Positions 619-53,274 of a stretch of 64,000 nucleotides of DNA are shown here, one piece after another. The notes under the pieces are model-generated. The model was not told the origin of the DNA. It was given only the letters and a program-made list of their open reading frames with translations, and did not search any database. Position numbers and translations under genes: made by a program. Position 1 is the stretch's first letter, and every line of letters starts with the position of its first letter. The stretch lies in assembly GCA_026982315.1 (NCBI GenBank), contig JALSHI010000026.1, positions 1 through 64,000 of the forward strand, written 5' to 3'. Origin of the DNA: Lysobacterales bacterium (GTDB taxonomy: Bacteria; Pseudomonadota; Gammaproteobacteria; Xanthomonadales; Marinicellaceae).

Positions 619-2810
<2,192 letters not shown>

Positions 2811-2811
2811 G

Positions 2812-3939
2812 TTAGCGGCCTCGATTCTGGCGGGAGCGATAGTCGCGCTCGCGGGTGTTATTGGACGGGGTTCCGGTGACAGTGGTCTTGCCCAGGTTGA
2901 TGACTTCGGGTGTCTTGGGTGCTTTTTTGAGCATGTCTTGCAAGGGCAGGTACATAAGGTTGTTGCCATTGCCGCTGGTGATGATTTTGGGGTTGCCCTG
3001 CAACACGGACTCCATGGTTTCCAGATAGAGTCTTTGGCGGGTGACTGTTGGCGCCTTTTCGTATTGTTGCCGGATCAGATCAAACTGTCTGGCGCGGCCT
3101 TCTGCTTCGGTGATGGTGGAGACTTTGTAAGCCTCGGCATTCTGGACGATTTGCAACGCCTGACCTTCGGCAATGGGCAGGGCCTTGCGGGCATACTGGT
3201 TGGCTTCGTTGATGTAGGTTTTCTGGTCTTCGCGGGCCTTGATAACGTCATCGAAAGCGGCCTTGACCTCCTCGGGTGGATGGACTTCGGTAATGTTGAA
3301 CTTGGTCACCTTGATGCCGGACTGGTAATCGTCCAGCATTTTTTGCAGGTTTTTCATCACCGACATAATGACGTCATTACGGTTTTCGTTAATGATGTGG
3401 TCCATGGTGCTGGTGCCAGCCACCTGGCGGACGGCACTTTCTGCGGCCTGGCGCACGGTGGTTTCCGGGTCGGCCAGTCGAAACAGGTAGTTGTTGACCT
3501 CATCCTCGCGCACAATGTATTGCACGGTGTAGTCCATATTCACCAGATTTTTGTCTTCGGTGAGCATTTCGCCGCTGTGCGCCATGGAGCGGATTTTCTG
3601 AACGTCTACCTTGTAAACCGTGCTGATGGGCGCCGGCCAGGTGATGTTCAGGCCAGGCTGCATGGTTTTGTGGTATTTGCCAAACAGCAGAACCACGCCG
3701 CGCTCGCCTTCGTTAATGGTCCAGACAGAATTCCACAGGGCAATGGCGCCAGCGCCGATGAGAACCAGGGCGGCGATTAATGCCATGTTGCCATTGCCGC
3801 CATTACCGCCAAAGAAGGCGGATAGTTTTTGTCCCAGTTGTTTCAGGATTTGTTCCAGATCTTGCGGGGGCTGTTTGCGGTTCCACGGGTCATTGGGCTT
3901 GTTGGGGCCGCTGCTTTTGCCAGGTTCATTCCAGGCCAT
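2812..3939 (-). CDS. hflK: HflK, SPFH-domain partner of HflC
   Basis: HflK pairs with HflC in the inner membrane to control FtsH. The start at 3939 (MAWNEPGK) follows GGAG at 8 nt. Features in order are a Gly/Pro-rich cytoplasmic N-terminus, a hydrophobic segment (ALIAALVLIGAGAIALW), a band-7 domain (NEGERGVVLLFGKY, QPGLNITWPAP) and a helical coil (EAEGRARQFDL). Its 375 residues compare with 419 in E. coli. The start lies 14 nt inside the end of hflX, so the two are probably translationally coupled. The C-terminus is Arg/Asn-rich and variable, as is usual in the family. Confidence 0.96.
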   Translation of the reverse strand: MAWNEPGKSSGPNKPNDPWNRKQPPQDLEQILKQLGQKLSAFFGGNGGNGNMALIAALVLIGAGAIALWNSVWTINEGERGVVLLFGKYHKTMQPGLNITWPAPISTVYKVDVQKIRSMAHSGEMLTEDKNLVNMDYTVQYIVREDEVNNYLFRLADPETTVRQAAESAVRQVAGTSTMDHIINENRNDVIMSVMKNLQKMLDDYQSGIKVTKFNITEVHPPEEVKAAFDDVIKAREDQKTYINEANQYARKALPIAEGQALQIVQNAEAYKVSTITEAEGRARQFDLIRQQYEKAPTVTRQRLYLETMESVLQGNPKIITSGNGNNLMYLPLQDMLKKAPKTPEVINLGKTTVTGTPSNNTRERDYRSRQNRGR

Positions 3940-27101: not shown

Positions 27102-27505
27102 ATCTGAATCAGGTGACTGTCACGGTGTCCAGCATACCGGAGGCCGTGGCGTTTTACCGAACCCTGGGCCTGCAGCAGATTGTGGATTCACCGCATTATG
27201 CGCGGTTTTTATGTACCCCGGGCGATACCACCTTTTCTGTGCATATCGGCCAGGTGGCTCCAGCCACCAATGCCGTCATTTATTTCGAAAGCGCCAGTGA
27301 ACAGGCGTTATATGCCCAGGTGAGGCGTTTGCAGCAGGCGGGTGTGGTTTTCGACGAGGAGCCAGTGGCGCAGCGTTGGGGCTGGGTTGAGGCTCGTTTG
27401 CGCGATCCGGACGAAAATCGCCTGGTGTTGTACTGGGCCGGCGAGTATCGACTCAACCCGCCCTGGCGCATACCGGATGAACCGGCCGGTCAAGCGCCTG
27501 ATTGA
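27098..27505 (+). CDS. VOC-superfamily protein (glyoxalase/bleomycin-resistance fold)
   Basis: A 135-residue single-domain vicinal-oxygen-chelate protein. It begins with a typical first strand and AVAFYRTLGLQQI, and ends with RLRDPDENRLVLYWAGE, where the Asp-Pro-Asp-Glu-Asn turn is a family mark. The expected N-terminal metal ligand position is not obviously His, so metal binding is uncertain. Substrate unknown. Its 3' end overlaps that of the convergent PqqD-like gene by 16 nt. Confidence 0.8.
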   Translation: MNLNQVTVTVSSIPEAVAFYRTLGLQQIVDSPHYARFLCTPGDTTFSVHIGQVAPATNAVIYFESASEQALYAQVRRLQQAGVVFDEEPVAQRWGWVEARLRDPDENRLVLYWAGEYRLNPPWRIPDEPAGQAPD

Positions 27506-27777
27506 ATCAGGCCGGCTTGTTGCAGTGCGTTCAGAAAAGCCAGCGTGTCTTCTGTGGCCTGGGTTTTGTCGCAGTCATATTCAGCCATAAGCTGATCGAC
27601 AATGGCGGCGGGGGAGAGGCCTTGCTGTAAGCCTTGCAATATCGTCGCGCCAGTGGCGTTAACCGAAAAATACAAGCCTTTTTCACTGTTCAGCAACACC
27701 GCGCTGTCTTCCAGGTGCGCACAATGCAGCGCATTGTTCAGGCGCACAGTAGCGGGCAATGTGGTGAAGGGTTTCAT
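27490..27777 (-). CDS. PqqD-like RRE-domain protein in an ECF sigma operon
   Basis: PqqD-type proteins are small winged-helix chaperones that bind leader peptides of ribosomally made, modified peptides. The 95-residue product shows the family pattern: ALHCAHLEDSAVLLNSEKGLYFSVNATGATILQGL and a helical end with VDQLMAEYDCD and FLNALQQAGLI. The ATG at 27777 has GGA upstream; a TTG at 27804 overlapping the previous stop is an alternative. There is no radical SAM enzyme, precursor peptide or other PQQ gene in view. It is the last gene of the operon running from 29557. Confidence 0.75.
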   Translation of the reverse strand: MKPFTTLPATVRLNNALHCAHLEDSAVLLNSEKGLYFSVNATGATILQGLQQGLSPAAIVDQLMAEYDCDKTQATEDTLAFLNALQQAGLIQSGA

Positions 27778-27800
27778 GCTTAAATCCGATGATAAGTCGC

Positions 27801-28385
27801 TCAAGGGGTCTGTGCAAGATTGTTTTGCGCCGGGGCGGAGTTATTCGCGCCCGGGCCTGTCTCCTGCTTATTGTGGCCTTGGGAACGACTTTTTTCAAAT
27901 TGCTTGCGCAATGCCTGGCGTTTTTCCGGCGGCAAGCGGTGAAACTGACGCCAGACCTTAATCAGCCGTGCGCGCTCAGCCGGGGGCAGTTGCCGAAACA
28001 TGCGCCAGCGTTTTTTCAGTTGGCGGCGTTTTTCCGGCGGCAAATGCTGCCAGCGTCGCCAGTGCTTTTTTATGACCCTTTTTTGCGCCGGGCCTGACGC
28101 ATGCATTTTTTGGCGGTTTTTCAGCAATCGCCAACGCTGGCGCGGCGGCAAGTGATTCCAGCGATTTTCGAACCGTTTGAGCTGCTGTTGTTGGTCAGGC
28201 GTGAGCGCTTGCCACGGCGGCGCACTGCGTTGCATGGGTTCCGGCTGGTTGCCCGGGCGCGACTGACTTTTTTCAGCCGTTTGCGCGCCACCAGCCACCA
28301 GGCTCCACAACACGAGCAGTATGGCGCAACATACCTGAGGCCACTGTCGGTTGTGATGGATGGAATGGATTTTGAATGGTTTCAT
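27801..28385 (-). CDS. Exported DUF3106-like protein with basic repeats
   Basis: A 194-residue protein with an N-terminal hydrophobic signal or anchor (CCAILLVLWSLVAGG). The body contains four degenerate repeats around LPP: W..LPPRQRWRLLKN, W..LPPEKRRQLKKRW, F..LPPAERARLIKVW and F..LPPEKRQALRKQF. Basic and aromatic residues alternate, and the tail is polar. The pattern is that of DUF3106 proteins, which in betaproteobacteria accompany an ECF sigma factor and a small membrane protein, as here. Function unknown; envelope-associated by its signal. Confidence 0.75.
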   Translation of the reverse strand: MKPFKIHSIHHNRQWPQVCCAILLVLWSLVAGGAQTAEKSQSRPGNQPEPMQRSAPPWQALTPDQQQQLKRFENRWNHLPPRQRWRLLKNRQKMHASGPAQKRVIKKHWRRWQHLPPEKRRQLKKRWRMFRQLPPAERARLIKVWRQFHRLPPEKRQALRKQFEKSRSQGHNKQETGPGANNSAPAQNNLAQTP

Positions 28386-28412
28386 GATTTTTGAAAGAGT
28401 GCTGTGGGTTGC

Positions 28413-28886
28413 TTACGATGATTGGGTTGTATCCAGGGTGTCCATATGCTGATCCAGCCAGCGATAGAACGCCAGGTTTTCCAGTAAATCCAACTGTTCT
28501 TCATCCGGTATTTCCATAATCGTGGTATTGGCGATGTCTACCAGCTCATCTGCCGGGGGGGGGTGGGTTTCAGTCAATGATGCCGGTGGCGGATTCTGAA
28601 AGGGTTGCTTCTGGATCAGAGTGGGTAACCACAAGGCGCACAGAATGGTTGTGGCCACGGCAGGAACCAGCCAGCGATTGTGCCGGATGCTGAAACCGGA
28701 AGTTTCCGGCATCGCACGGCGTATGGCTTGCAAGCGGCTTTCTACCAGCGATTGCTGAATGCTTGTTGGCAGATTTTCAGTGCTGACATCCAGGTAGTTC
28801 AGTACCTGTTGGACGCAATCATCAGCGGCCTTGTCCCGTGTGGTTGCCGCTGGTTCGTGCTCTGGGCTTTTGTTCATGTTGTTCAT
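28413..28886 (-). CDS. Single-pass membrane protein, probable anti-sigma factor
   Basis: A 157-residue protein with a cytoplasmic N-terminal helical part (about 1-65, including CVQQVLNYLDVSTENLP), one membrane helix (WLVPAVATTILCALWLP) and an acidic periplasmic tail (IPDEEQLDLLENLAFYRWLDQ). The start overlaps the sigma factor stop (ATGA). Order, topology and coupling fit an anti-sigma factor, resembling the DUF3619-type partner of DUF3106. No zinc His-x3-Cys-x2-Cys motif is seen. Confidence 0.7.
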   Translation of the reverse strand: MNNMNKSPEHEPAATTRDKAADDCVQQVLNYLDVSTENLPTSIQQSLVESRLQAIRRAMPETSGFSIRHNRWLVPAVATTILCALWLPTLIQKQPFQNPPPASLTETHPPPADELVDIANTTIMEIPDEEQLDLLENLAFYRWLDQHMDTLDTTQSS

Positions 28887-29557
28887 GTTTTTGCCTCTGC
28901 ATCGGCTGCTTCAAAATGTGTTTTGCGGAGACCTGTCAGGCGTGCCCGTAAAGCGTGAATCGCCCGGGATGTATGTGTTTTGACGCTTCCGCCGCTGCAC
29001 CCCATAACCTGGGCTGTTTCAGCCACGCTCATGCCATACCAGCATCGCAACAGAAAAGCCTGCCGTTGGCGCAGGGGCAGTTCCCTGAGGGCGTGCTCGA
29101 TATGCTCGCCGAATTCCTGGTTTTCCAGCACAGCTTGGGGTTGGTAGCGGTCTTCGGCGGGCATGTTTTCGACCCTCTGCGGGTTGTTATGGTGTTTGTC
29201 TCCCCCCTCGGGACGGGAATCACGGCTAAACCAGCCAAACAGCCACGCTTGTTTTTGGTGCTGCCGGTGATAATCGATAATGCGGTGGTGCAACATGCGG
29301 TAAAACAGTTTTGGCCACTGATTTTGGGGCTTTTTTGCGTATTTTTCTATGAATTTCAGCATCACATCCTGTACGGTGTCCAGTGCCGCCTCCTGGTCTT
29401 GCAGAGATAACATGGCCATGCGAAAAGCGCGCTTTTCGTGGGCGATGAAAAAATCACTCAAAAGTTGATGCAATAGCATGGCATGAGGCTGGTCGGGGCT
29501 ACCATGGACGTTTATGGTGCACCAGGGTTGTACAAGAGAATGATGTTTCATACACAC
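28883..29557 (-). CDS. ECF-type RNA polymerase sigma factor
   Basis: Region 2 (LSDFFIAHEKRAFRMAMLSLQDQEAALDTVQDVMLKFIEKY) and region 4 (LRELPLRQRQAFLLRCWYGMSVAETAQVMGCSGGSVKTHTSRAI) are clear, joined by a His/Asn-rich linker. There are no regions 1 or 3, so it is an ECF sigma factor. The long frame gives 224 residues; an ATG at 29479 (MLLHQLLSDFF) would start directly at region 2 and may be the true start. It heads a four-gene coupled operon: anti-sigma-like, DUF3106-like, PqqD-like. Target promoters are unknown. Confidence 0.88.
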   Translation of the reverse strand: MCMKHHSLVQPWCTINVHGSPDQPHAMLLHQLLSDFFIAHEKRAFRMAMLSLQDQEAALDTVQDVMLKFIEKYAKKPQNQWPKLFYRMLHHRIIDYHRQHQKQAWLFGWFSRDSRPEGGDKHHNNPQRVENMPAEDRYQPQAVLENQEFGEHIEHALRELPLRQRQAFLLRCWYGMSVAETAQVMGCSGGSVKTHTSRAIHALRARLTGLRKTHFEAADAEAKT

Positions 29558-30163: not shown

Positions 30164-30192
30164 TTGCGATTTTTTTGACAAATCCATATGAT
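30164..30192 (+). promoter_or_regulatory. Possible promoter of the kinase-porin operon
   Basis: TTGCGA (30164-30169), a 17-nt spacer and TATGAT (30187-30192) predict transcription from about 30199, giving a 23-nt leader. TTGACA at 30175-30180 is not at a useful distance from any -10. Confidence 0.35.
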
Positions 30193-30221: not shown

Positions 30222-32039
30222 ATGCACAAAAAACCTGCCAGAATTGGTCGTTTCTCTATCATCGACACCCTCGGTGTGGGTGGTATGGGCGTGGTCTATC
30301 TTGGCAAAGATCCAGACATCGGGCGGAAGGTGGCCATTAAGGTCTTGCACTCGGTGGGCGACCCGGTCACGCTCGATCGTTTCAAGAATGAAGCCCGTAC
30401 GGTGGGTGATCTGACCCATCCCAATATCGTCACACTGCTGGAATACGGGGTGGAAAATAATCAACCGTTTTTGGTGATGGAGTATTTGCCCGGCAGTTCC
30501 CTGGAAAATTGGAAAAACAGCCCGCACACCCTGTTTGAGCATAAAAAGGTGTTGCTGGGTTTGTGTGATGCATTGGATTACGCGCATCAGAAAGGGGTGC
30601 TACACCGGGATCTAAAGCCGGGCAATGTTCAAGTCTTGCCTGGCGGGCATGCCAAGTTACTCGATTTTGGCATAGCCAGATCGGAGAATTCCGGGTTGAC
30701 GGCGACAGGTTTCTTCATTGGCACGCCCAAATACCTGGCGCCAGAGTTGTTGACCGGCGAGCCCCATAGCATTTCTTCGGACAACTACTCACTGGCCTTG
30801 ATGGCTTATAGTGCGCTCAGTGGTCATAATCCGTTTGACGCTGAGCAGTTTGAAGCGGTGATGACCAAAAAACTGACATTGGTGCCAACGCCATTACATC
30901 AGCTTAATTCCGCCATTCCCCAATCCTTGTCCGACACCATCTCTGCCTATTTGGCGAAAAACCCGGAAAGCCGGCCAGAAGGTGTGCAGCCGCTAAAGCA
31001 TGCGCTGGAAAAACTGATAGAGGAAAAAATCCTGTCCCGGCATATTCAGCCGTTACAAAAAGACAAAGCCGAAACCTTGTCCGGCACCACGGTGCTGGAA
31101 AATACGCCGGGCCGATCCCGTACGGGACTCAGGCGCAAAACTGGCGCCATCGCCATGATAGGGCTTGTGCTGGCCGGTACGCTGTTGTGGTTTGTTACAC
31201 AACAACCGTCCCAGGACAAGGTCATGGTTGACACTGGTATGAAACCGGTGGCGATTGACAGCCAGAAACGTGTTTCGGTGACAGATAAAGAGCCGGTTTT
31301 GCCTGAAAAACAAAATGACGAAGCCCTGGCTGGTGATGCATTACCACCTGAAAGCGACACCAGGGAAAATCTGGATCAGGCCAATGGGGATGACTCCGAG
31401 CGTCAGCAAACTGTTCCGGCAAATGACACCATTCGTATGGCCGACCATAAGCCTGAGGATACAGCCACCGAAAAACAGCCACCAAAGCCGGCGGGCACAT
31501 CAATAAAACACCGTGCGGCAGAGCCGGTGGCAGCCACGCCGAAACCCGTGCCGTCACACCGAAAAGCAGAGACAAATAAACCTCAAGTGGCCAAAAAGGC
31601 GGCGCCATCGAACCCGCCTGTAAGCCAACAACCGGAAGCCGGTAACAACACCATCGCTGCCATTGAGGATACCTTGTTTGCCCGGAAACCACAGTCCAGG
31701 CCGAAACCCGTATTGGCAAAGCCGAATTTGCCTTCATTTTCCACGCAAAACAGTGGTTTGTTGCCGTTGCAGGCGCTCACCAGTACAGTTTTGCCGCGGG
31801 GGCGCGCCTCCCGATTGCTGCTCAAATTGCCGCAAGGCCGGCCTTTGGACGAGTTGAAGGTATTGCGTGGCCGCCGCCCTGCCGAACAAATATCCATTCT
31901 GAAGCAAAAACCATTGGCCAATGGCCGTCTACAAGTCAGCGTGTATGTGGAACCTAACGCCGTATTGGGGGAATACACCCTGGTTGGCTGGCGGGATGGC
32001 AAAAAAACCAGTCCTTTGACCCTGGAGGTTACTTTATGA
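30222..32039 (+). CDS. Membrane Ser/Thr protein kinase with extracytoplasmic Ig-like domain
   Basis: A Hanks-type kinase of 605 residues. The cytoplasmic domain has glycine loop LGVGGMGVVY, Lys40 in VAIKVL, catalytic HRDLKPGN with Asp130, and DFG at 148-150. A single membrane helix lies at about 309-327. Next is a long Pro/Ala/Lys-rich periplasmic linker (about 330-520), long enough to cross much of the periplasm. The C-terminal 75 residues (LLLKLPQGRPLDELKVLRG to GEYTLVGWRDGK) look like an all-beta Ig or TIG-type domain. It overlaps the porin gene by 4 nt. No PP2C phosphatase is nearby. Confidence 0.92.
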   Translation: MHKKPARIGRFSIIDTLGVGGMGVVYLGKDPDIGRKVAIKVLHSVGDPVTLDRFKNEARTVGDLTHPNIVTLLEYGVENNQPFLVMEYLPGSSLENWKNSPHTLFEHKKVLLGLCDALDYAHQKGVLHRDLKPGNVQVLPGGHAKLLDFGIARSENSGLTATGFFIGTPKYLAPELLTGEPHSISSDNYSLALMAYSALSGHNPFDAEQFEAVMTKKLTLVPTPLHQLNSAIPQSLSDTISAYLAKNPESRPEGVQPLKHALEKLIEEKILSRHIQPLQKDKAETLSGTTVLENTPGRSRTGLRRKTGAIAMIGLVLAGTLLWFVTQQPSQDKVMVDTGMKPVAIDSQKRVSVTDKEPVLPEKQNDEALAGDALPPESDTRENLDQANGDDSERQQTVPANDTIRMADHKPEDTATEKQPPKPAGTSIKHRAAEPVAATPKPVPSHRKAETNKPQVAKKAAPSNPPVSQQPEAGNNTIAAIEDTLFARKPQSRPKPVLAKPNLPSFSTQNSGLLPLQALTSTVLPRGRASRLLLKLPQGRPLDELKVLRGRRPAEQISILKQKPLANGRLQVSVYVEPNAVLGEYTLVGWRDGKKTSPLTLEVTL

Positions 32040-33361
32040 ATATTCGTTCGTCTGCCGTTCGCTTGATGATGTGGCTTGTCCTGCTTGCGCCTTCGGGTTT
32101 GGCGGCAGCGCAGCAAAGCGTCCAACAAAAGCTGTCCGTGCTGGAGCGGAATATCCAAGTATTGCAGCAGCAGATCGTGCAGCTGAAGCAAGAGATGGAC
32201 AAAGACGCCTCTGATGAGCACACGCGTCGTCTGGCGGAACTGGAGGCCTATGCGGTGCAACTGCACGATGTGCTAACCGAATTGCGTGACAAGGTAGAAG
32301 ACAACAGTGTGGAATTGTCCCGTATGGCCAAGATAGAAAGCCATAAAACCGGTATTAAGGTTTATGGAACGGTTGTCGCCGGTAAGCAACAAGGACGTAA
32401 CAGCATTATCGATGGACAATCCTTTGAGCTGGTATTGAGCGGTCAGCCCCACGAGCGACTGAGTTTTTTTACTGAATTGGAATTTGAAAGGGCGGCCACT
32501 GTGGGTGGCGAGCGTGGTGGAGAGGTACTGCTGGAACAGGCCTATACCGACTTGAGTTTCACGCCCGCATTGAACTTTCGTGCAGGTGTACTGCTGATGC
32601 CATTTGGCAATATTGAACGCGATCATTTTGCGCCGTTGCGTGACGTGATTTCCACGCCATTCACCAGCTATGTATTGGCGCCTTCGGACTGGACCGATAA
32701 CGGCCTGGGTTTCAATGGCCGGTTTTTACTCGGTGAGAGCTGGTTTGCCGATTATCAAACCTATGTTGTGGCGGGTTTGGGCAACGGCATGTCCACGCGT
32801 GGTTTGCGTAACACTCGCCAGGGCTTTGGAGAGGACAATAATAACAACAAGGCTTTTGTGGGCAAGGTGTCGCTGCAAAACACCAATGGCTTTACCGTTG
32901 GTTTTAGTGGCTATCATGGCGCCTGGAATGATGCGTCCGACCGCTATATCACCGGATATAACATTGACCTGGACTGGCCCATTGGCTGGTTGGAACTGGT
33001 GGCTGAGTACACGAACATGGATGTGGACAGAGAAGTGGCCGGGTCGGCGCGTATGGATGGCTATTATCTGCGCGGCATTGTCAACCTGTCACACTTTTTC
33101 ATGCCCGGCTGGTTGGGCCAGTCTTTTCCCCATGCCCGGCTCAATCTGGTATGGCAGCGTGACTCGGTGACCATCGAAAACTTTTTCGACCCGGCAATCG
33201 CGGATAAGCACGAAGAGCGCTACACGTTGGGGTTTCAGTTGCGCCCCACTCCTTCCTGGGTGACCAATATCAACTATGAATCAGCCAACGGCGATGACAT
33301 TGACCCCATTTTGCTGGGCAATGATTCCCGCTGGCTGTTTTCCATTGGTTACCTGTTTTAG
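32036..33361 (+). CDS. Outer-membrane porin with N-terminal coiled coil, phosphate-porin-like
   Basis: A 441-residue exported protein. The signal peptide (LMMWLVLLAPSGLAAA) is followed by a coiled coil (QKLSVLERNIQVLQQQIVQL to DVLTELRDKVEDNSVE, about 28-97). The rest alternates short strands typical of a beta-barrel (IKVYGTVVAG, ALNFRAGVLLMPFGN) and ends in a terminal Phe (FSIGYLF), the outer-membrane insertion signal. It resembles the OprP/OprO-like porin family. Translation is coupled to the kinase gene, suggesting a functional pair. Solute unknown. Confidence 0.85.
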   Translation: MNIRSSAVRLMMWLVLLAPSGLAAAQQSVQQKLSVLERNIQVLQQQIVQLKQEMDKDASDEHTRRLAELEAYAVQLHDVLTELRDKVEDNSVELSRMAKIESHKTGIKVYGTVVAGKQQGRNSIIDGQSFELVLSGQPHERLSFFTELEFERAATVGGERGGEVLLEQAYTDLSFTPALNFRAGVLLMPFGNIERDHFAPLRDVISTPFTSYVLAPSDWTDNGLGFNGRFLLGESWFADYQTYVVAGLGNGMSTRGLRNTRQGFGEDNNNNKAFVGKVSLQNTNGFTVGFSGYHGAWNDASDRYITGYNIDLDWPIGWLELVAEYTNMDVDREVAGSARMDGYYLRGIVNLSHFFMPGWLGQSFPHARLNLVWQRDSVTIENFFDPAIADKHEERYTLGFQLRPTPSWVTNINYESANGDDIDPILLGNDSRWLFSIGYLF

Positions 33362-33392: not shown

Positions 33393-33421
33393 CTGACAGG
33401 CTGATGGCTTTGGGCGATAAT
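33393..33421 (+). promoter_or_regulatory. priA promoter placed for a leaderless transcript
   Basis: CTGACA (33393-33398), a 17-nt spacer and GATAAT (33416-33421) each match the sigma-70 consensus at 5 of 6 bases. The predicted start site, about 33428, is one base before the ATG at 33429. The in-frame ATG at 33420 lies inside the -10. Confidence 0.6.
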
Positions 33422-33428
33422 GGCGCCA

Positions 33429-35651
33429 ATGAAAACCCCGGATGCTACTGGTCCGGCCGCCGCTGTTGCCCAAGTGGCGGTGCCGGTGCCATTTGCCGAT
33501 ACCCTCAGTTACCGCTGTTTGCCCGGCACGTTGCCGTGCCCAGGCGCACGGGTGGCTGTGCGCGTTAACAACCGGCCGCTGGTGGGCGTGGTAACGGCGG
33601 TTTACAAGAACGCTGCTGAATGCGGCCGGGCTGTTTCGCCACAGCGACTTAAAAGCCTTGAGGCGGTGCTGGATGTGCAACCTTTCTTGCCACCGGAAAG
33701 CCTGGCATTTTTACACAAAGTAGCGCGTTATTATCTGGCTCCACTGGGGGAAGTGGTGGCCACAGCCATACCAGGCTGGTTTCGGCGCTTGCCAGCGAAG
33801 CCGCCGCCGGTTGAGCGCTGGTGGACTGTGACAAGGCCGTTAACCCGGGCGGAACAGGAGAGTCTGGCCAAGCGCGCTCCGCGCCAATGGGTGATCTGGC
33901 AGGCTGTGAATGAGGCGGGTGTGATCCTTGGCAAAGAGCTGGCCGCGACCCATCCGCAAGCTGCGAATGTGTGTCGCCAGTTAGAAAAGAAAGGCTTGTT
34001 GAAGGCTCAGGATAGCTGTGTTCTGGAAAATCAGCAGCCTCAACAGCCGGATTTTGATCTGACCTGTGGCCAGCAGACGGCCTTGGAAAAGATTCAGCAA
34101 CAAGAGGCATTTGCGGTGAATTTGCTGGATGGCATTACCGGCTCGGGCAAAACCGAGGTTTATATCCGAGTCATCCAACAGCAATTGTCCCGGGGCAAAA
34201 AGGTTTTGGTGCTGGTGCCGGAAATTGGCCTGACACCACAGTTGTTTGGAGAAATCGCCCGTCGGATAAAAGGCCGGGTGGCGGTGTTACATTCGGGGCT
34301 ATCCGATGGCGCCCGCGCGCGGGAATGGAACCATGCCCGTTATGGGCAGGTGGATGTGCTGGTTTCCACCCGTTCGGGAATTTTTGCCCCCATGGAAAAT
34401 CTTGGCCTGATTATTGTGGACGAAGAACACGATAGCAGCTTCAAACAGCAGGACGGCCTGCGTTACAACGCGCGTGATTTGGCCGTATTGCGGGGGAAAA
34501 TGGAAAATGTGCCAGTCATTCTTGGCTCGGCGACTCCCTCTCTTGAAAGCCTGCACAATGCACAGCAGGGGAAATATCATTGGCTAAAACTGCGCCAACG
34601 CACCAATAAATCGCCTTTGCCGCGTGTTCGGGTGCTGAATATGCAAAACAAAAATGTGACAGGTGGTTTGGCGCAGGATGTGCTGGATCAGATCCATCAG
34701 GAATTCACAGCCGGGAATCAGGTGCTGGTTTTTCTGAACCGGCGAGGCTGGGCGCCGGCTATATTGTGTCATGGTTGTGGCTGGGTGGCGGATTGCCGCC
34801 ATTGTGATGTTAAGTTGACCTACCATAAAGGCATCCACCGGTTGCGCTGCCATCACTGCCAGCGCCATTATCCGCTGCCGGAGTTTTGTCCCCAGTGTGG
34901 TTCCCAAGCCATTCAACCCTTGGGCGAAGGCACGGAAAGGCTGGGCGATACCCTGCAAGCGGTGGTGGGTGTGGACAATGTGGTGCGGGTGGATAGAGAC
35001 ACGGTGCGCACCGCGGCGCAATGGAAAAAAACCTTAAGCCGCATACGCACGGGTGCGCCATGTGTCATGGTGGGCACGCAAATGCTGTCCAAAGGGCATG
35101 ACTTTCCCAATTTGACGCTGGTGGTGGTGGTGAATGTGGATGCGAATTTTTATTCGTTGGACTTCCGGGCGCCGGAGAAGCTGGCTCAGTTACTGGTGCA
35201 AGTGGCCGGTCGGGCCGGTCGCAAGGATCGCCCCGGCGAGGTGGTGATACAGACCCACAGCCCGCAGCAACCCTTGTTCGCCCAACTTTTTGGCCAGGGA
35301 TATGAGACTTTTGCCGCCGCCGAGCTGGAACAGCGCCGCGCCGCCGGGTTTCCCCCGGCTTCCAGTATGGCTATTGTGCGCGCCCGCAGCCGCGATGCCG
35401 AACACCTGGATGACTTTTTGCAGGCTGTGGCCGCCGCTGTGCCTGCCGATCCGGCGGTGGCCGTGATGGGGCCGGTGCCCGCGCCTGTTTTTCGCAAGGG
35501 CGACCAATACCACATGCAACTGTTGTTCAATAGCCAACAGCGGCCGGCCTTGCGGCGATTATTGCGTCAGTTATTGAGCCTTGCAGAGGTGAAAAGGCCG
35601 CCGTCCGGTATTCACTGGAGCCTGGATATTGACCCGCAGGATCTGGCCTAA
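33429..35651 (+). CDS. priA: Primosomal replication restart helicase PriA
   Basis: PriA rebuilds replication forks after collapse, acting as a 3'-to-5' helicase that loads DnaB. The N-terminal DNA-binding domain (VAVPVPFADTLSYRCL) precedes the helicase with Walker A GITGSGKTEVY near 235 and the DEEH box (IIVDEEHDSSFKQQ). A Cys-rich zinc insert (CHGCGW, CRHC, CHHC, CPQCGS) and the late VAGRAGRKDRPGEVVIQT block follow. It gives 740 residues, as expected. The start at 33429 (MKTPDATG) is preferred because the upstream in-frame ATG lies in the promoter. The gene ends 3 bp from the convergent pepQ. Confidence 0.96.
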   Translation: MKTPDATGPAAAVAQVAVPVPFADTLSYRCLPGTLPCPGARVAVRVNNRPLVGVVTAVYKNAAECGRAVSPQRLKSLEAVLDVQPFLPPESLAFLHKVARYYLAPLGEVVATAIPGWFRRLPAKPPPVERWWTVTRPLTRAEQESLAKRAPRQWVIWQAVNEAGVILGKELAATHPQAANVCRQLEKKGLLKAQDSCVLENQQPQQPDFDLTCGQQTALEKIQQQEAFAVNLLDGITGSGKTEVYIRVIQQQLSRGKKVLVLVPEIGLTPQLFGEIARRIKGRVAVLHSGLSDGARAREWNHARYGQVDVLVSTRSGIFAPMENLGLIIVDEEHDSSFKQQDGLRYNARDLAVLRGKMENVPVILGSATPSLESLHNAQQGKYHWLKLRQRTNKSPLPRVRVLNMQNKNVTGGLAQDVLDQIHQEFTAGNQVLVFLNRRGWAPAILCHGCGWVADCRHCDVKLTYHKGIHRLRCHHCQRHYPLPEFCPQCGSQAIQPLGEGTERLGDTLQAVVGVDNVVRVDRDTVRTAAQWKKTLSRIRTGAPCVMVGTQMLSKGHDFPNLTLVVVVNVDANFYSLDFRAPEKLAQLLVQVAGRAGRKDRPGEVVIQTHSPQQPLFAQLFGQGYETFAAAELEQRRAAGFPPASSMAIVRARSRDAEHLDDFLQAVAAAVPADPAVAVMGPVPAPVFRKGDQYHMQLLFNSQQRPALRRLLRQLLSLAEVKRPPSGIHWSLDIDPQDLA

Positions 35652-48696: not shown

Positions 48697-51600
48697 ATGA
48701 CACATCCTGCGTCGCTTGACGATCAGCATACCCATATTTTTCTTTTTCATTTATCCCCGGACTGGTTGAGCAACCCTGATCGCCAGAGGTTGCTGGCCGC
48801 CTTGAATTTACCCCAGGACTGGTCCGGCCGGATAACGCCGCTGGCAGCCCCCCGGCTCACGGAGCTGGACCTGACGGTTATCCAGCAACAATTGGCGCCG
48901 GATACCCGGTTTGCGGTGTTTGTGGATGCTGAAAGTGCTTTCGGCCCCCACTGGTTGCCGCGCTTGCGCGCCGGACTGCCAGAAAACAGCCACTATGACA
49001 TCAGCTCGGCGCTCACCACCGGGGTTTATGAATTATCTCCGGTGCCTGAGGGCGTGCGGTTTGGCAACGCCTTTCAGCAGTTGGACAATCTGCTGTTTTT
49101 GCATCAAAAAACCTCGCCTTATCAATCGGTTTCAGTCATCAGCCCCCATGCAATCGTGGTGCGTGTGCACAATGGTCGTCTGGCCGTCCATGATTTTTCC
49201 TGTTTGCCTGCGTCCCGGGCTTCGGCGGCCACCACGGTATTTTTGCAGCCACCAGGTCTATTGCGTTGCCAAAACGTGCCTAAAGTGGGGGATCAGCGTC
49301 CTTTGCCGGCGCATCCCATGCGAAGTTTTCACGAGTGGTTGCAGACCCGTTTGCCGGAATTGGAAGGCGACACCGGCGCCATGCCGGAATGGCCAACCGG
49401 TTTCCCCGGGCTGGATGGCAAGCCGGTGATGTTGCATATCACCATGGACTGGGGAGGCGGAGTCAACAAATGGATCAACGAGTACATTCGTCAGGAACGC
49501 GACTATCACCATCTGGTTCTGGCCAGTGAAGGTGAATTCTTCCGGCGCCGTTTTGGGGAAGCCTTGAACCTTCACTGGGGCGCGACAAATGGCTTGTCAT
49601 TGCGGCGCTTTGAGCTTGGCGCGCCCATCCGGGTTATGGCGGATGACCATGTGGAATATACGGCCCTGCTTGAGTCTGTGGTTACGGCTTTTGGGGTTGA
49701 GCGGGTTTTGGTGTCCTCCGTGATTGGCCATGGGCTGGCATGTCTGCGTACCGGTCTGCCAACCATGCGCGTGTTCCATGACTATTTCCCGCACTGGCCG
49801 TTGCTGAATGCGCGCCTGAACGGGTGCCCACCCGATGAATCGGCCTGGCAAGCGGCCTGGGACGAGAGTCGCCAGGACGTGTTTGGTGGCATCACCGCTG
49901 ATGCACATCAGCAGTGGCATCAGGCGCTGATCCGGGCCTACCAGGCGGACAATGTGGTCTTGCTGGCGCCTTCTGACAGTGCGATGAAAAATCTTCAGGC
50001 GCTGGGTGTGCCCGCGGCTGGCAAAGTCATTCACAAGGTGCCGCATGCCATGCCGCCGTGGCCGGACATGGCGACCGCCAGAAAGGATGACAACGAGCCT
50101 GAGGAGACAACGAATCCAGCATCAGCCTTGACAGTTCTGCTGCCTGGTCGTGTGAATGCGGTCAAGGGGCAAGAGGTTCTGGAAGCGTTACTGGATGAAT
50201 GGGAGCAGCACATACCGGATGCACGGCTGATATTGCTGGGCGCTGGCCGTCAGGGACGTAAGTTCGCCCACAGACCGCAGGTGCGTGTCATTGAAGATTA
50301 CCGCAATGAGGAATTGCCGGCATGGTTGCAGAAGCTGCGCCCGCATGTGGCCTTGTTGCTTTCCCAGGCCGCCGAAACATTTAGCTACACCCTGAGTGAA
50401 ATGCAACAAGCCGGCATACCGGTTATTGCCACGGATATCGGCGCTTTGGGTGAACGCGTGCGGGACGGGGAAACCGGATTGCTGGTGACACCTGGGGATC
50501 CACAAAAACAGGCCAGAGAAGTGCTGATGCACCTGAAAAGCCTGCGTGACAACCCGGACCTGATACAAAAAATGCGCCATAACAGCCGTCGGCTCAGTCA
50601 CATGAATTTTGCCCAGGCGCACCAGTCCTACCGGCGTTTGTGGCAAAAAATCAGCGGGCAGAAAAGCGCCAGAACCCCAGAAAACCGTGATAATGCAACG
50701 GATATCAAGATCCGTCATCAGGCGTTGCCGGTGTTCTTGTGGCCGCGTTATGGGGAGCGCCAGCTGGCCGAGCGAAGCACGCACCAGCGGCGGACAATTC
50801 AGCAATTGCAGCAACGTCTGCAAGCCAGTGAGTCGCTTACCGAGGAGCGCACCCAGTGGGCCTGGCAATTACAAAAGCACATCACCCTGCTGGAAGAAGC
50901 CATTGATGATCTCAAGAAGCACCAGGTCGAGTTGCAGCACACCATTGCCGAGCGGGAAAAACACATTGCCGCCGAACAGGCCGAGGTGGAGCATCTGAAG
51001 CAGGTCATTCATGCAGAGCAGGCCCGGCTTGGGGAAGAAATACGCCGTCTGCAAAGTGAGCTGGCGGCGGTATACAACAGCACATCCTGGCGCATCACCA
51101 AACCATTGCGATTTGTTCGTCGCGGTGTGCAAAATGGCCGGGCCCGGCTGGCCTACCGGTTGCGTCAGGCCGCCGGATTGCCGGTGCGGTTTTCCCGCAG
51201 TTTGAAAACCCGTGGCTGGCGCGGCACCATCGACATGGTTCGCCAGCGTCTGCGGGCTGATTTTCAGGGTGAACACGCACCAGGCGCAGACGCAGACGCG
51301 GTGGCGGTGATGGAAACCACTTTTTCTCCCATAGTCGTCAAGACCGCAACAGATACGCCCCCGCGGGTTTCCGTCATCATTCCGGTGTATAACCACTTTG
51401 AACACACCTGGAACTGCCTGAATTCCATCGCCGGAATAAAAACCGCCGTGCCCTTTGAAGTCATAGTCGTGGATGATGCGTCCACAGATGAAACAAAAGA
51501 AAAAATGGCGTTGATCTCTGGTGTTCGTTATCACCGCCAGCCGCATAATGGCGGCTTTATTGAGTCCTGTAACACCGGCGCGGCGCTGGCCGCTGGCGAG

Positions 51601-53274
51601 TACCTGCTGTTTCTCAATAATGACACCATGGTTAGGGATGACTGGCTGGATGCGTTACTGGATATTTTTCAGAGCCACCCGGATGCTGGTGTGGCAGGCA
51701 GCCAGTTATTGTACCCGGACGGTCGATTGCAAGAAGCCGGGGGAATTGTCTTCAGCGATGCCAGTGGTTGGAACTATGGCCGCAACCAGAACCCGCAGGC
51801 GCCGGAGTGTAACCATGTGCGGGCGGTGGATTATTGTTCCGGCGCCAGCATCATGATTCCCAAAGCCCTGTTTGACCACCTGGGTGGTTTCGACACCCGC
51901 TATAAACCCGCCTATTACGAAGACACGGATTTGGCCTTTGCCGTGCGCCAGGCCGGCAAGAGCGTCTATTACCAGCCGGCATCGCAGGTGGTACATTTTG
52001 AAGGTGTCTCCTCGGGCACGGACATTACCAGCGGGACCAAGCGTTTCCAGGCGATTAACCAGAAAAAATTTGCCGAAAAGTGGGCGCAGGCCCTGGCGCG
52101 GCAGCCGGCGCCAGGCAGTGATATCGAATGGGCCCGCATTCATGGCCAACCGCCGCGGGTGCTGATTGCCGATGCCACCACACCGACACCGGATCAGGAT
52201 TCCGGCAGCTTGCGGATGATGAATTTAATCCGTATCTTGCGTGAACTGGGTTACCACGTGATATTCATGCCGGAGAATCTGGCGCATGCCGGGGCCTATA
52301 CCCGGCAGCTACAGCACATGGGCGTGGAGTGTCTGTATCACCCCTTTGTGCGAAATCCCATGGATTATCTGCGTGACAAGGGAACATTGCTGGATGCGGT
52401 GATTCTCAGCCGCTACTACGTGGCCGAGCCCTTGTTGCCGCTGGTGCGGCATTATGCGCCCCAGGCTCAGGTGATTTTCGATACGGTGGATTTGCACTAT
52501 GTGCGGGAAGCCCGCCAGGCGGAACTGGCTGATAATCCCAAGCTGGCGCGTCTGGCGGAGAAAACCCGTTTGCGGGAACAATCCTGCATCAAGCAGGCGG
52601 ATGTGACCTGGGTGGTCAGCCCTTATGAGCAGCAATTACTGGAAAAGGCGCTACCGGCAGCCCGCGTTGATGTCCTGTCCAATATCCATGAAATTCCCGG
52701 ATGCAGACGGCCTTTTGACCAACGGCGTGATGTGATGTTTGTGGGTGGATTCCAGCATACGCCCAATGTGGATGCGGCCTTATGGTTTGTCAAAGAGATA
52801 TGGCCACGGATTCGCAAGCAACTGCCGCAGATGCGCTTTCATTTGATTGGCTCCAAGGCGCCCGACGAAATTCGTGCCTTGGGTGCGGAAGAAGGCGTGG
52901 TGTTTCACGGCTTTGTGCCGGATCTGGCGCCGTTTCTGGACGGTTGCCGTCTGGCGGTGGCGCCTTTGCGTTTTGGCGCTGGCGTCAAGGGCAAGGTCAA
53001 TTTGAGCATGTCATACGGTCAGCCGGTGGTGGCCACCGGTGTGGCCACCGAAGGCATGCATACGGCGCATGAAACGGATGTGCTGAACGCGGAAACACCA
53101 GCGGATTTCGCCGCTGCCGTGGTGCGGCTGTATCAGGATCAGGCGCTGTGGGAAAAACTCTCGGCCAATGGGCTGAAAAATGTCGAGCAGTGGTTTTCCT
53201 TCGCCGCCGCGCGCCGCAGTGTGCAGCAGGCTTTGCAGAAACAGGCCGCCGGCGTGATTGACCAGCAGGCCTGA
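48697..53274 (+). CDS. Very large three-module glycosyltransferase
   Basis: A 1525-residue cytoplasmic protein without membrane helices. Residues 1-230 are unassigned. A first GT4-like module spans about 243-660 (HITMDWGGGVNKWI; LPGRVNAVKGQEVLEALL at 479; EMQQAGIPVIATDIGALGE). A coiled coil lies at about 691-798. A GT2 module starts at 889 (VSVIIPVYNHFEHTWNCL, VVDDASTDET, EDTDLAFAVRQ). A second GT4-like module spans about 1151-1515 (ADATTPTPDQDSGSLRMMN, FVGGFQHTPNVDAALWF). Such fusions build O-antigen or other surface polysaccharides. The sugar products are unknown. Confidence 0.88.
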   Translation: MTHPASLDDQHTHIFLFHLSPDWLSNPDRQRLLAALNLPQDWSGRITPLAAPRLTELDLTVIQQQLAPDTRFAVFVDAESAFGPHWLPRLRAGLPENSHYDISSALTTGVYELSPVPEGVRFGNAFQQLDNLLFLHQKTSPYQSVSVISPHAIVVRVHNGRLAVHDFSCLPASRASAATTVFLQPPGLLRCQNVPKVGDQRPLPAHPMRSFHEWLQTRLPELEGDTGAMPEWPTGFPGLDGKPVMLHITMDWGGGVNKWINEYIRQERDYHHLVLASEGEFFRRRFGEALNLHWGATNGLSLRRFELGAPIRVMADDHVEYTALLESVVTAFGVERVLVSSVIGHGLACLRTGLPTMRVFHDYFPHWPLLNARLNGCPPDESAWQAAWDESRQDVFGGITADAHQQWHQALIRAYQADNVVLLAPSDSAMKNLQALGVPAAGKVIHKVPHAMPPWPDMATARKDDNEPEETTNPASALTVLLPGRVNAVKGQEVLEALLDEWEQHIPDARLILLGAGRQGRKFAHRPQVRVIEDYRNEELPAWLQKLRPHVALLLSQAAETFSYTLSEMQQAGIPVIATDIGALGERVRDGETGLLVTPGDPQKQAREVLMHLKSLRDNPDLIQKMRHNSRRLSHMNFAQAHQSYRRLWQKISGQKSARTPENRDNATDIKIRHQALPVFLWPRYGERQLAERSTHQRRTIQQLQQRLQASESLTEERTQWAWQLQKHITLLEEAIDDLKKHQVELQHTIAEREKHIAAEQAEVEHLKQVIHAEQARLGEEIRRLQSELAAVYNSTSWRITKPLRFVRRGVQNGRARLAYRLRQAAGLPVRFSRSLKTRGWRGTIDMVRQRLRADFQGEHAPGADADAVAVMETTFSPIVVKTATDTPPRVSVIIPVYNHFEHTWNCLNSIAGIKTAVPFEVIVVDDASTDETKEKMALISGVRYHRQPHNGGFIESCNTGAALAAGEYLLFLNNDTMVRDDWLDALLDIFQSHPDAGVAGSQLLYPDGRLQEAGGIVFSDASGWNYGRNQNPQAPECNHVRAVDYCSGASIMIPKALFDHLGGFDTRYKPAYYEDTDLAFAVRQAGKSVYYQPASQVVHFEGVSSGTDITSGTKRFQAINQKKFAEKWAQALARQPAPGSDIEWARIHGQPPRVLIADATTPTPDQDSGSLRMMNLIRILRELGYHVIFMPENLAHAGAYTRQLQHMGVECLYHPFVRNPMDYLRDKGTLLDAVILSRYYVAEPLLPLVRHYAPQAQVIFDTVDLHYVREARQAELADNPKLARLAEKTRLREQSCIKQADVTWVVSPYEQQLLEKALPAARVDVLSNIHEIPGCRRPFDQRRDVMFVGGFQHTPNVDAALWFVKEIWPRIRKQLPQMRFHLIGSKAPDEIRALGAEEGVVFHGFVPDLAPFLDGCRLAVAPLRFGAGVKGKVNLSMSYGQPVVATGVATEGMHTAHETDVLNAETPADFAAAVVRLYQDQALWEKLSANGLKNVEQWFSFAAARRSVQQALQKQAAGVIDQQA

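Follow-up and report, generated by a model that had tools for sequence, protein, structure and literature searches.

The locus analysed here raises the question of whether two proteins encoded by overlapping genes, a transmembrane Ser/Thr kinase and an outer-membrane porin, work as one unit across the cell envelope, and whether they might do so by touching each other. The window (the whole stretch of DNA that was analysed, 64,000 nucleotides) contains the following features at this locus:

30164..30192, + strand: candidate sigma-70-like promoter TTGCGA-17-TATGAT upstream of the kinase gene (consensus scan, 9/12 matches; weak evidence)
30222..32039, + strand: transmembrane Hanks-type Ser/Thr kinase, 605 aa (ORF, Pfam, orthologues)
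30249..31025, + strand: cytoplasmic kinase domain (Pfam Pkinase, orthologue alignment)
31143..31199, + strand: single transmembrane helix, residues 308-326, preceded on the cytoplasmic side by RTGLRRK (hydropathy)
31200..31751, + strand: periplasmic low-complexity linker, 184 aa
31752..32036, + strand: C-terminal periplasmic Ig-like (E-set) beta-sandwich of the kinase, 95 aa (AlphaFold, fold search)
32024..32028, + strand: GGAGG Shine-Dalgarno sequence of the porin, inside the kinase ORF, where it encodes part of the kinase C-terminal EVTL
32036..32039, + strand: ATGA stop/start overlap of kinase and porin, the same in 10/10 loci
32036..33361, + strand: outer-membrane porin, 441 aa, predicted OprP/OprO-like barrel with a C-terminal Phe
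32114..32350, + strand: periplasmic coiled coil of the porin, residues 27-105, with a conserved RLAxLEAYAVQLxxVL patch

The initial annotation had reported that the kinase stop and the porin start overlap in an ATGA, and this was confirmed at positions 32036-32039, with both ORFs on the + strand. The porin ATG is located 7 nt downstream of the GGAGG sequence, within the last kinase codons. The accompanying statement that the two proteins are made together stands in so far as the overlap implies translational coupling, but equal amounts of both proteins are not implied. The 4-base overlap is exact in all ten homologous loci despite kinase C-terminal domains that are as little as 33% identical, which indicates that the kinase-porin junction is more than chance. 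Since the invariant EVTL terminus of the kinase overlaps the ribosome-binding site of the porin, part of this conservation may serve porin translation.

The kinase is a Hanks-type enzyme according to Pfam Pkinase (PF00069; E=8e-47, 160.3 bits vs a cut-off of 31.7), and VAIK (K40), E57, HRDLKPxN, DFG and APE are invariant in 10/10 orthologues. The linker that follows the transmembrane helix had been described as long and Pro-rich. Its length was borne out; the Pro content is 14%. It is Pro-rich only in part, and its counterpart in the second genus is rich in Lys and Glu and contains runs like those of TonB/TolA. Among the orthologues the linker measures 130-203 aa and shares 16-24% identity with the window linker; given this low identity and limited range, length rather than sequence seems to be kept. 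The kinases of loci L069-L074 have a Lys/Glu-rich stretch, probably helical, followed by a TonB-like Pro/Lys run (KPKKKPVKVV...EEEYKPPVIVYQKPKKKV), which is very unlike the window linker. Between genera, divergence is faster in the C-terminal domain and linker (33-37% identity) than in the kinase domain (64-67%), which counts against the reading, set out below, that the Ig-like domain reads the porin stalk.

The terminal beta domain that had been proposed for the kinase was recovered by AlphaFold as an all-beta, eight-strand sandwich of 95 residues with a mean pLDDT of 94.7. Pfam has no family for it at a useful score. Structural comparison with VIA-align gave Z values of 9-9.7 for the Ig-like domains of SusA, cyclomaltodextrinase and galactose oxidase, and of about 8 for filamin repeats, all of which we take to be E-set folds. 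The E-set/Ig fold is common for protein binding, and a shared fold by itself shows no function.

Features of the porin are a signal peptide, two predicted N-terminal helices (residues 21-56 and 60-102), barrel strands and the C-terminal Phe, in agreement with the periplasmic coiled coil that the initial annotation had placed at its start. The nearest family is Porin_O_P (PF07396), below its threshold (15.8 bits vs a cut-off of 20.9), and weak matches to it were obtained in 4/10 of the porins from kinase-porin pairs. The top Foldseek matches were OprP and OprO; the porin model is poor (mean pLDDT 52), so this fold match is indicative only. The closest relatives of the porin elsewhere are other porins, one of them a paralogue in the same genome, and several precede FMN_bind and PepSY genes. 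One such operon, on contig C24 of genome G000 (positions 1244-3823, locus L076), encodes a stalked OprP-like porin, an FMN_bind protein and a PepSY-TM protein. The same arrangement is present at L077, L078, L109, L111, L114-L116 and L119 and in many gamma-proteobacterial genomes, with the Pfam names taken from one member.

The conservation of the pair in relatives, on which the initial annotation had staked its proposal, was then assessed. A search of 61 related genomes gave strong matches to the kinase and the porin in one and the same set of 10, at adjacent positions. Hence the proposal survives, with perfect co-occurrence in two genera and with different flanks; all the cases belong to one family and come mostly from MAGs, which leaves few independent evolutionary comparisons. 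The pair is present in 10 of the 33 genomes of the family: 3/3 from the genus of the window (g1) and 7/11 from a second genus (g4), while it is absent from 18/18 g3 genomes and from the one g2 genome. The kinase C-terminal domain and the close porin are confined to these 10 genomes among the 299 searched in the order, and neither was found alone.

Outside the family, no convincing relative of the C-terminal domain was detected in 369 genomes of the class and 398 of the phylum; two matches (E about 0.007) were discarded, as the ORFs of their contigs are not kinases. For the nearest porins beyond the family, the surroundings, where read, are FMN_bind/PepSY operons or other contexts, and the 27 porin loci scanned for distant pairs, with flanks of only about 1.5-6 kb, contained no kinase. 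A kinase of G005 located 1.6 kb from a paralogous porin was also rejected as an instance of the pair. Two ORFs lie between them, and this kinase resembles those of the family that adjoin an aspartyl-tRNA-synthetase-like ORF, so that this is not the same pair. In three MAGs (L066, L069 and L074) the contig ends 6-213 bp from the 3' end of the porin gene, perhaps because the assembly broke at a repetitive or variable stretch beside the pair.

The surroundings of the pair were informative. In g1 it lies between a leftward ECF-sigma operon and the rightward priA gene. In five g4 genomes (G005, G007, G009, G015 and G021) the sigma gene directly adjoins priA at a distance of about 0.5 kb, without the pair between them, and in most of these genomes the pair is found elsewhere with other flanks. 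In G007 and G015 it lies on the same contig about 15 kb from the sigma-priA junction, beside DUF5666/DUF6502 genes and near a gene read by eye as putA. The sigma gene and priA thus stay together without the pair, and the pair stays together without them, indicating that the kinase is linked to the porin and not to its surroundings. Of the evidence obtained, this change of flanks with the pair retained argues most strongly for a functional unit of kinase and porin. A role for the neighbouring ECF sigma factor was considered and then dropped, given that its gene also adjoins priA where the pair is missing between them. Between G000 and G007, PriA is 52%, the kinase domain 65% and the porin barrel 59% identical, values that fit genes inherited at the same rate as the rest of the genome. 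In the window, PqqD-like, DUF3106, DUF3619-like and ECF sigma genes (27490-29557, - strand) form a block with priA (33420-35651, + strand). This block recurs in the second genus (PqqD and DUF3106 judged there by eye) and is apparently an independent conserved neighbourhood.

On this evidence the kinase and the porin very probably share one pathway. Our main reading, to which we assign a probability of roughly 0.5, is that they would form a single envelope-spanning signalling unit in which the Ig-like domain reads the porin stalk. The porin would be an OprP-like channel in the outer membrane, probably trimeric, and its N-terminal coiled coil would extend as a stalk into the periplasm. The kinase would be anchored in the inner membrane, its catalytic domain on the cytoplasmic side, and its flexible linker would let the Ig-like domain reach through the periplasm and dock on the stalk or read it in some other way. 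Binding to a trimeric stalk would cluster the kinase and lead to trans-autophosphorylation; whether the porin is present, assembled or occupied would thereby be conveyed to cytoplasmic substrates by Ser/Thr phosphorylation. The docking, the activation by a trimer, the signal and the substrates are proposed parts of this model, and what the kinase would sense may be either the state of the porin or solute flow. For direct contact between the kinase C-terminal domain and the stalk, the chances appear about even. A more specific version is doubtful: the porin itself would be the receptor of the kinase, its stalk directly binding and clustering the Ig-like domain and so converting channel state at the cell surface into cytoplasmic phosphorylation with two proteins only, and this would be the first such case.

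Part of the evidence counted for stalk contact is that, at equal barrel divergence, the coil is more conserved in the paired porins than in their paralogues. At a barrel identity of 0.50-0.65, the identity of the N-terminal coil was 0.46 for the paired porins (22 comparisons, which are non-independent and represent essentially two deep splits) against 0.28 for the controls (173 comparisons among 24 paralogous porins, several from FMN_bind/PepSY operons). In helix 2 the RLAxLEAYAVQLxxVL patch is nearly invariant, including A67, A71, V74 and Q75, which take outward-facing b, c or f places in the heptad, and E88, further along the helix, is also invariant and outward. Such an outward conserved stripe could come from a partner, from packing of a helical hairpin or from peptidoglycan. 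Geometry allows contact, as the initial annotation had supposed in stating that linker and domain are long enough to approach the outer membrane. By our own estimate, a linker of 130-200 residues would span roughly 7-10 nm as a random coil, the domain about 4 nm and a 75-residue helix of the stalk up to 11 nm, which together are of the order of the width of the periplasm. Distances for the kinase domain, the C-terminal domain and the porin are correlated at 0.97-0.99, a result of shared ancestry that says nothing specific.

Kinase and porin could also serve the same pathway without touching, if the Ig-like domain bound peptidoglycan or a soluble ligand admitted by the co-expressed porin; the signal would then come by way of the porin and be read by the kinase. 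The co-inheritance of the two genes fits this equally well, the paralogues of the porin are solute channels in FMN_bind/PepSY operons, and the fold comparison of the C-terminal domain puts accessory domains of carbohydrate-active enzymes and of galactose oxidase first, shortly followed by filamins. However, it leaves unexplained why the periplasmic coil is under added constraint in the paired porins, and we regard this arrangement as possible but rather unlikely. Still less probable is a form of quality or biogenesis control, in which the kinase would monitor the porin as it crosses the periplasm or tune envelope synthesis to porin load, instead of sensing a channel at work. A likeness can be drawn to DegS, which reads porin C-termini; porin C-termini ending in Phe are assembly signals, and the kinase is translated just ahead of the porin in one unit. 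Such control would nevertheless not need a dedicated porin partner, and related paralogous porins occur in the same genomes without a kinase partner.

The restriction of the pair to one family and two genera might also be taken to mean that the genes are merely adjacent, in a neighbourhood frozen in a few related genomes. This is largely refuted, and we consider it very improbable, since the flanks have changed around a junction that is identical to the base and neither the kinase C-terminal domain nor the porin occurs alone in the 299 genomes of the order.

The kinase and the porin are each of a known kind; it is the pairing that is new. The initial annotation had named no described system of this type, and likewise no kinase-porin operon was found in the literature searched (a non-exhaustive search of open-licence papers). 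To our knowledge, the inputs of Gram-negative Ser/Thr kinases with periplasmic domains are mostly unknown, and the pair offers a defined candidate input for one of them that can be tested in the laboratory. If the proteins touch, two genes would be enough to carry a signal from the outer membrane to the phosphorylation of cytoplasmic proteins. Even without contact, the locus is a clean conserved bicistron whose kinase has a periplasmic domain outside any Pfam family.

Several known systems resemble the proposed unit of kinase and porin in part. In signalling by TonB-dependent receptors and FecR, an outer-membrane barrel uses its N-terminal periplasmic extension to contact a single-pass regulator of the inner membrane at the regulator's periplasmic end. 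There the barrel has 22 strands and the output is a sigma factor, whereas the pair consists of a porin with a kinase output, and Pfam detected neither a TonB-dependent receptor nor a FecR domain in it. The Stk1/PknB PASTA kinases are, like the window kinase, single-pass Hanks-type enzymes with an extracytoplasmic C-terminal sensor region; they differ in carrying PASTA domains, and the window kinase is Gram-negative with a porin partner. The Stk1/PknB model NF033483 (NCBIfam) matched residues 9-285 only, with 236.8 bits, below its cut-off of 450, and no PASTA repeat was matched by Pfam in the window kinase.

PpkA, with TagQRST in Pseudomonas aeruginosa and with RtkS in Serratia, is another transmembrane Ser/Thr kinase; partners in the envelope activate it through its periplasmic domain, which gives a precedent for activating such a kinase from the side of the outer membrane. 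In P. aeruginosa a direct interaction with TagR is presumed to activate PpkA, and in Serratia RtkS binds the periplasmic domain of PpkA directly (PMC6082577). The partner in those systems is the TagQRST complex (TagR being outer-membrane-associated) or the periplasmic RtkS, with no porin, and the genes lie in a T6SS cluster; no T6SS context and no tag or fha partners were seen beside the pair in the neighbourhoods read, where genes were identified largely by eye. OmpM is a porin trimer whose coiled-coil stalk extends into the periplasm, similar to the coil predicted for the paired porin, and its stalk tethers the outer membrane to peptidoglycan (PMC10628300). Unlike OmpM, the paired porin has no SLH domain and is linked to a kinase; by analogy, peptidoglycan binding could be an alternative role for its coil.

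Elsewhere in the window, an ORF at 48697-53274 (+ strand) encodes a 1525-aa protein in which glycosyltransferase group 1 matches flank a family 2 domain in one chain.
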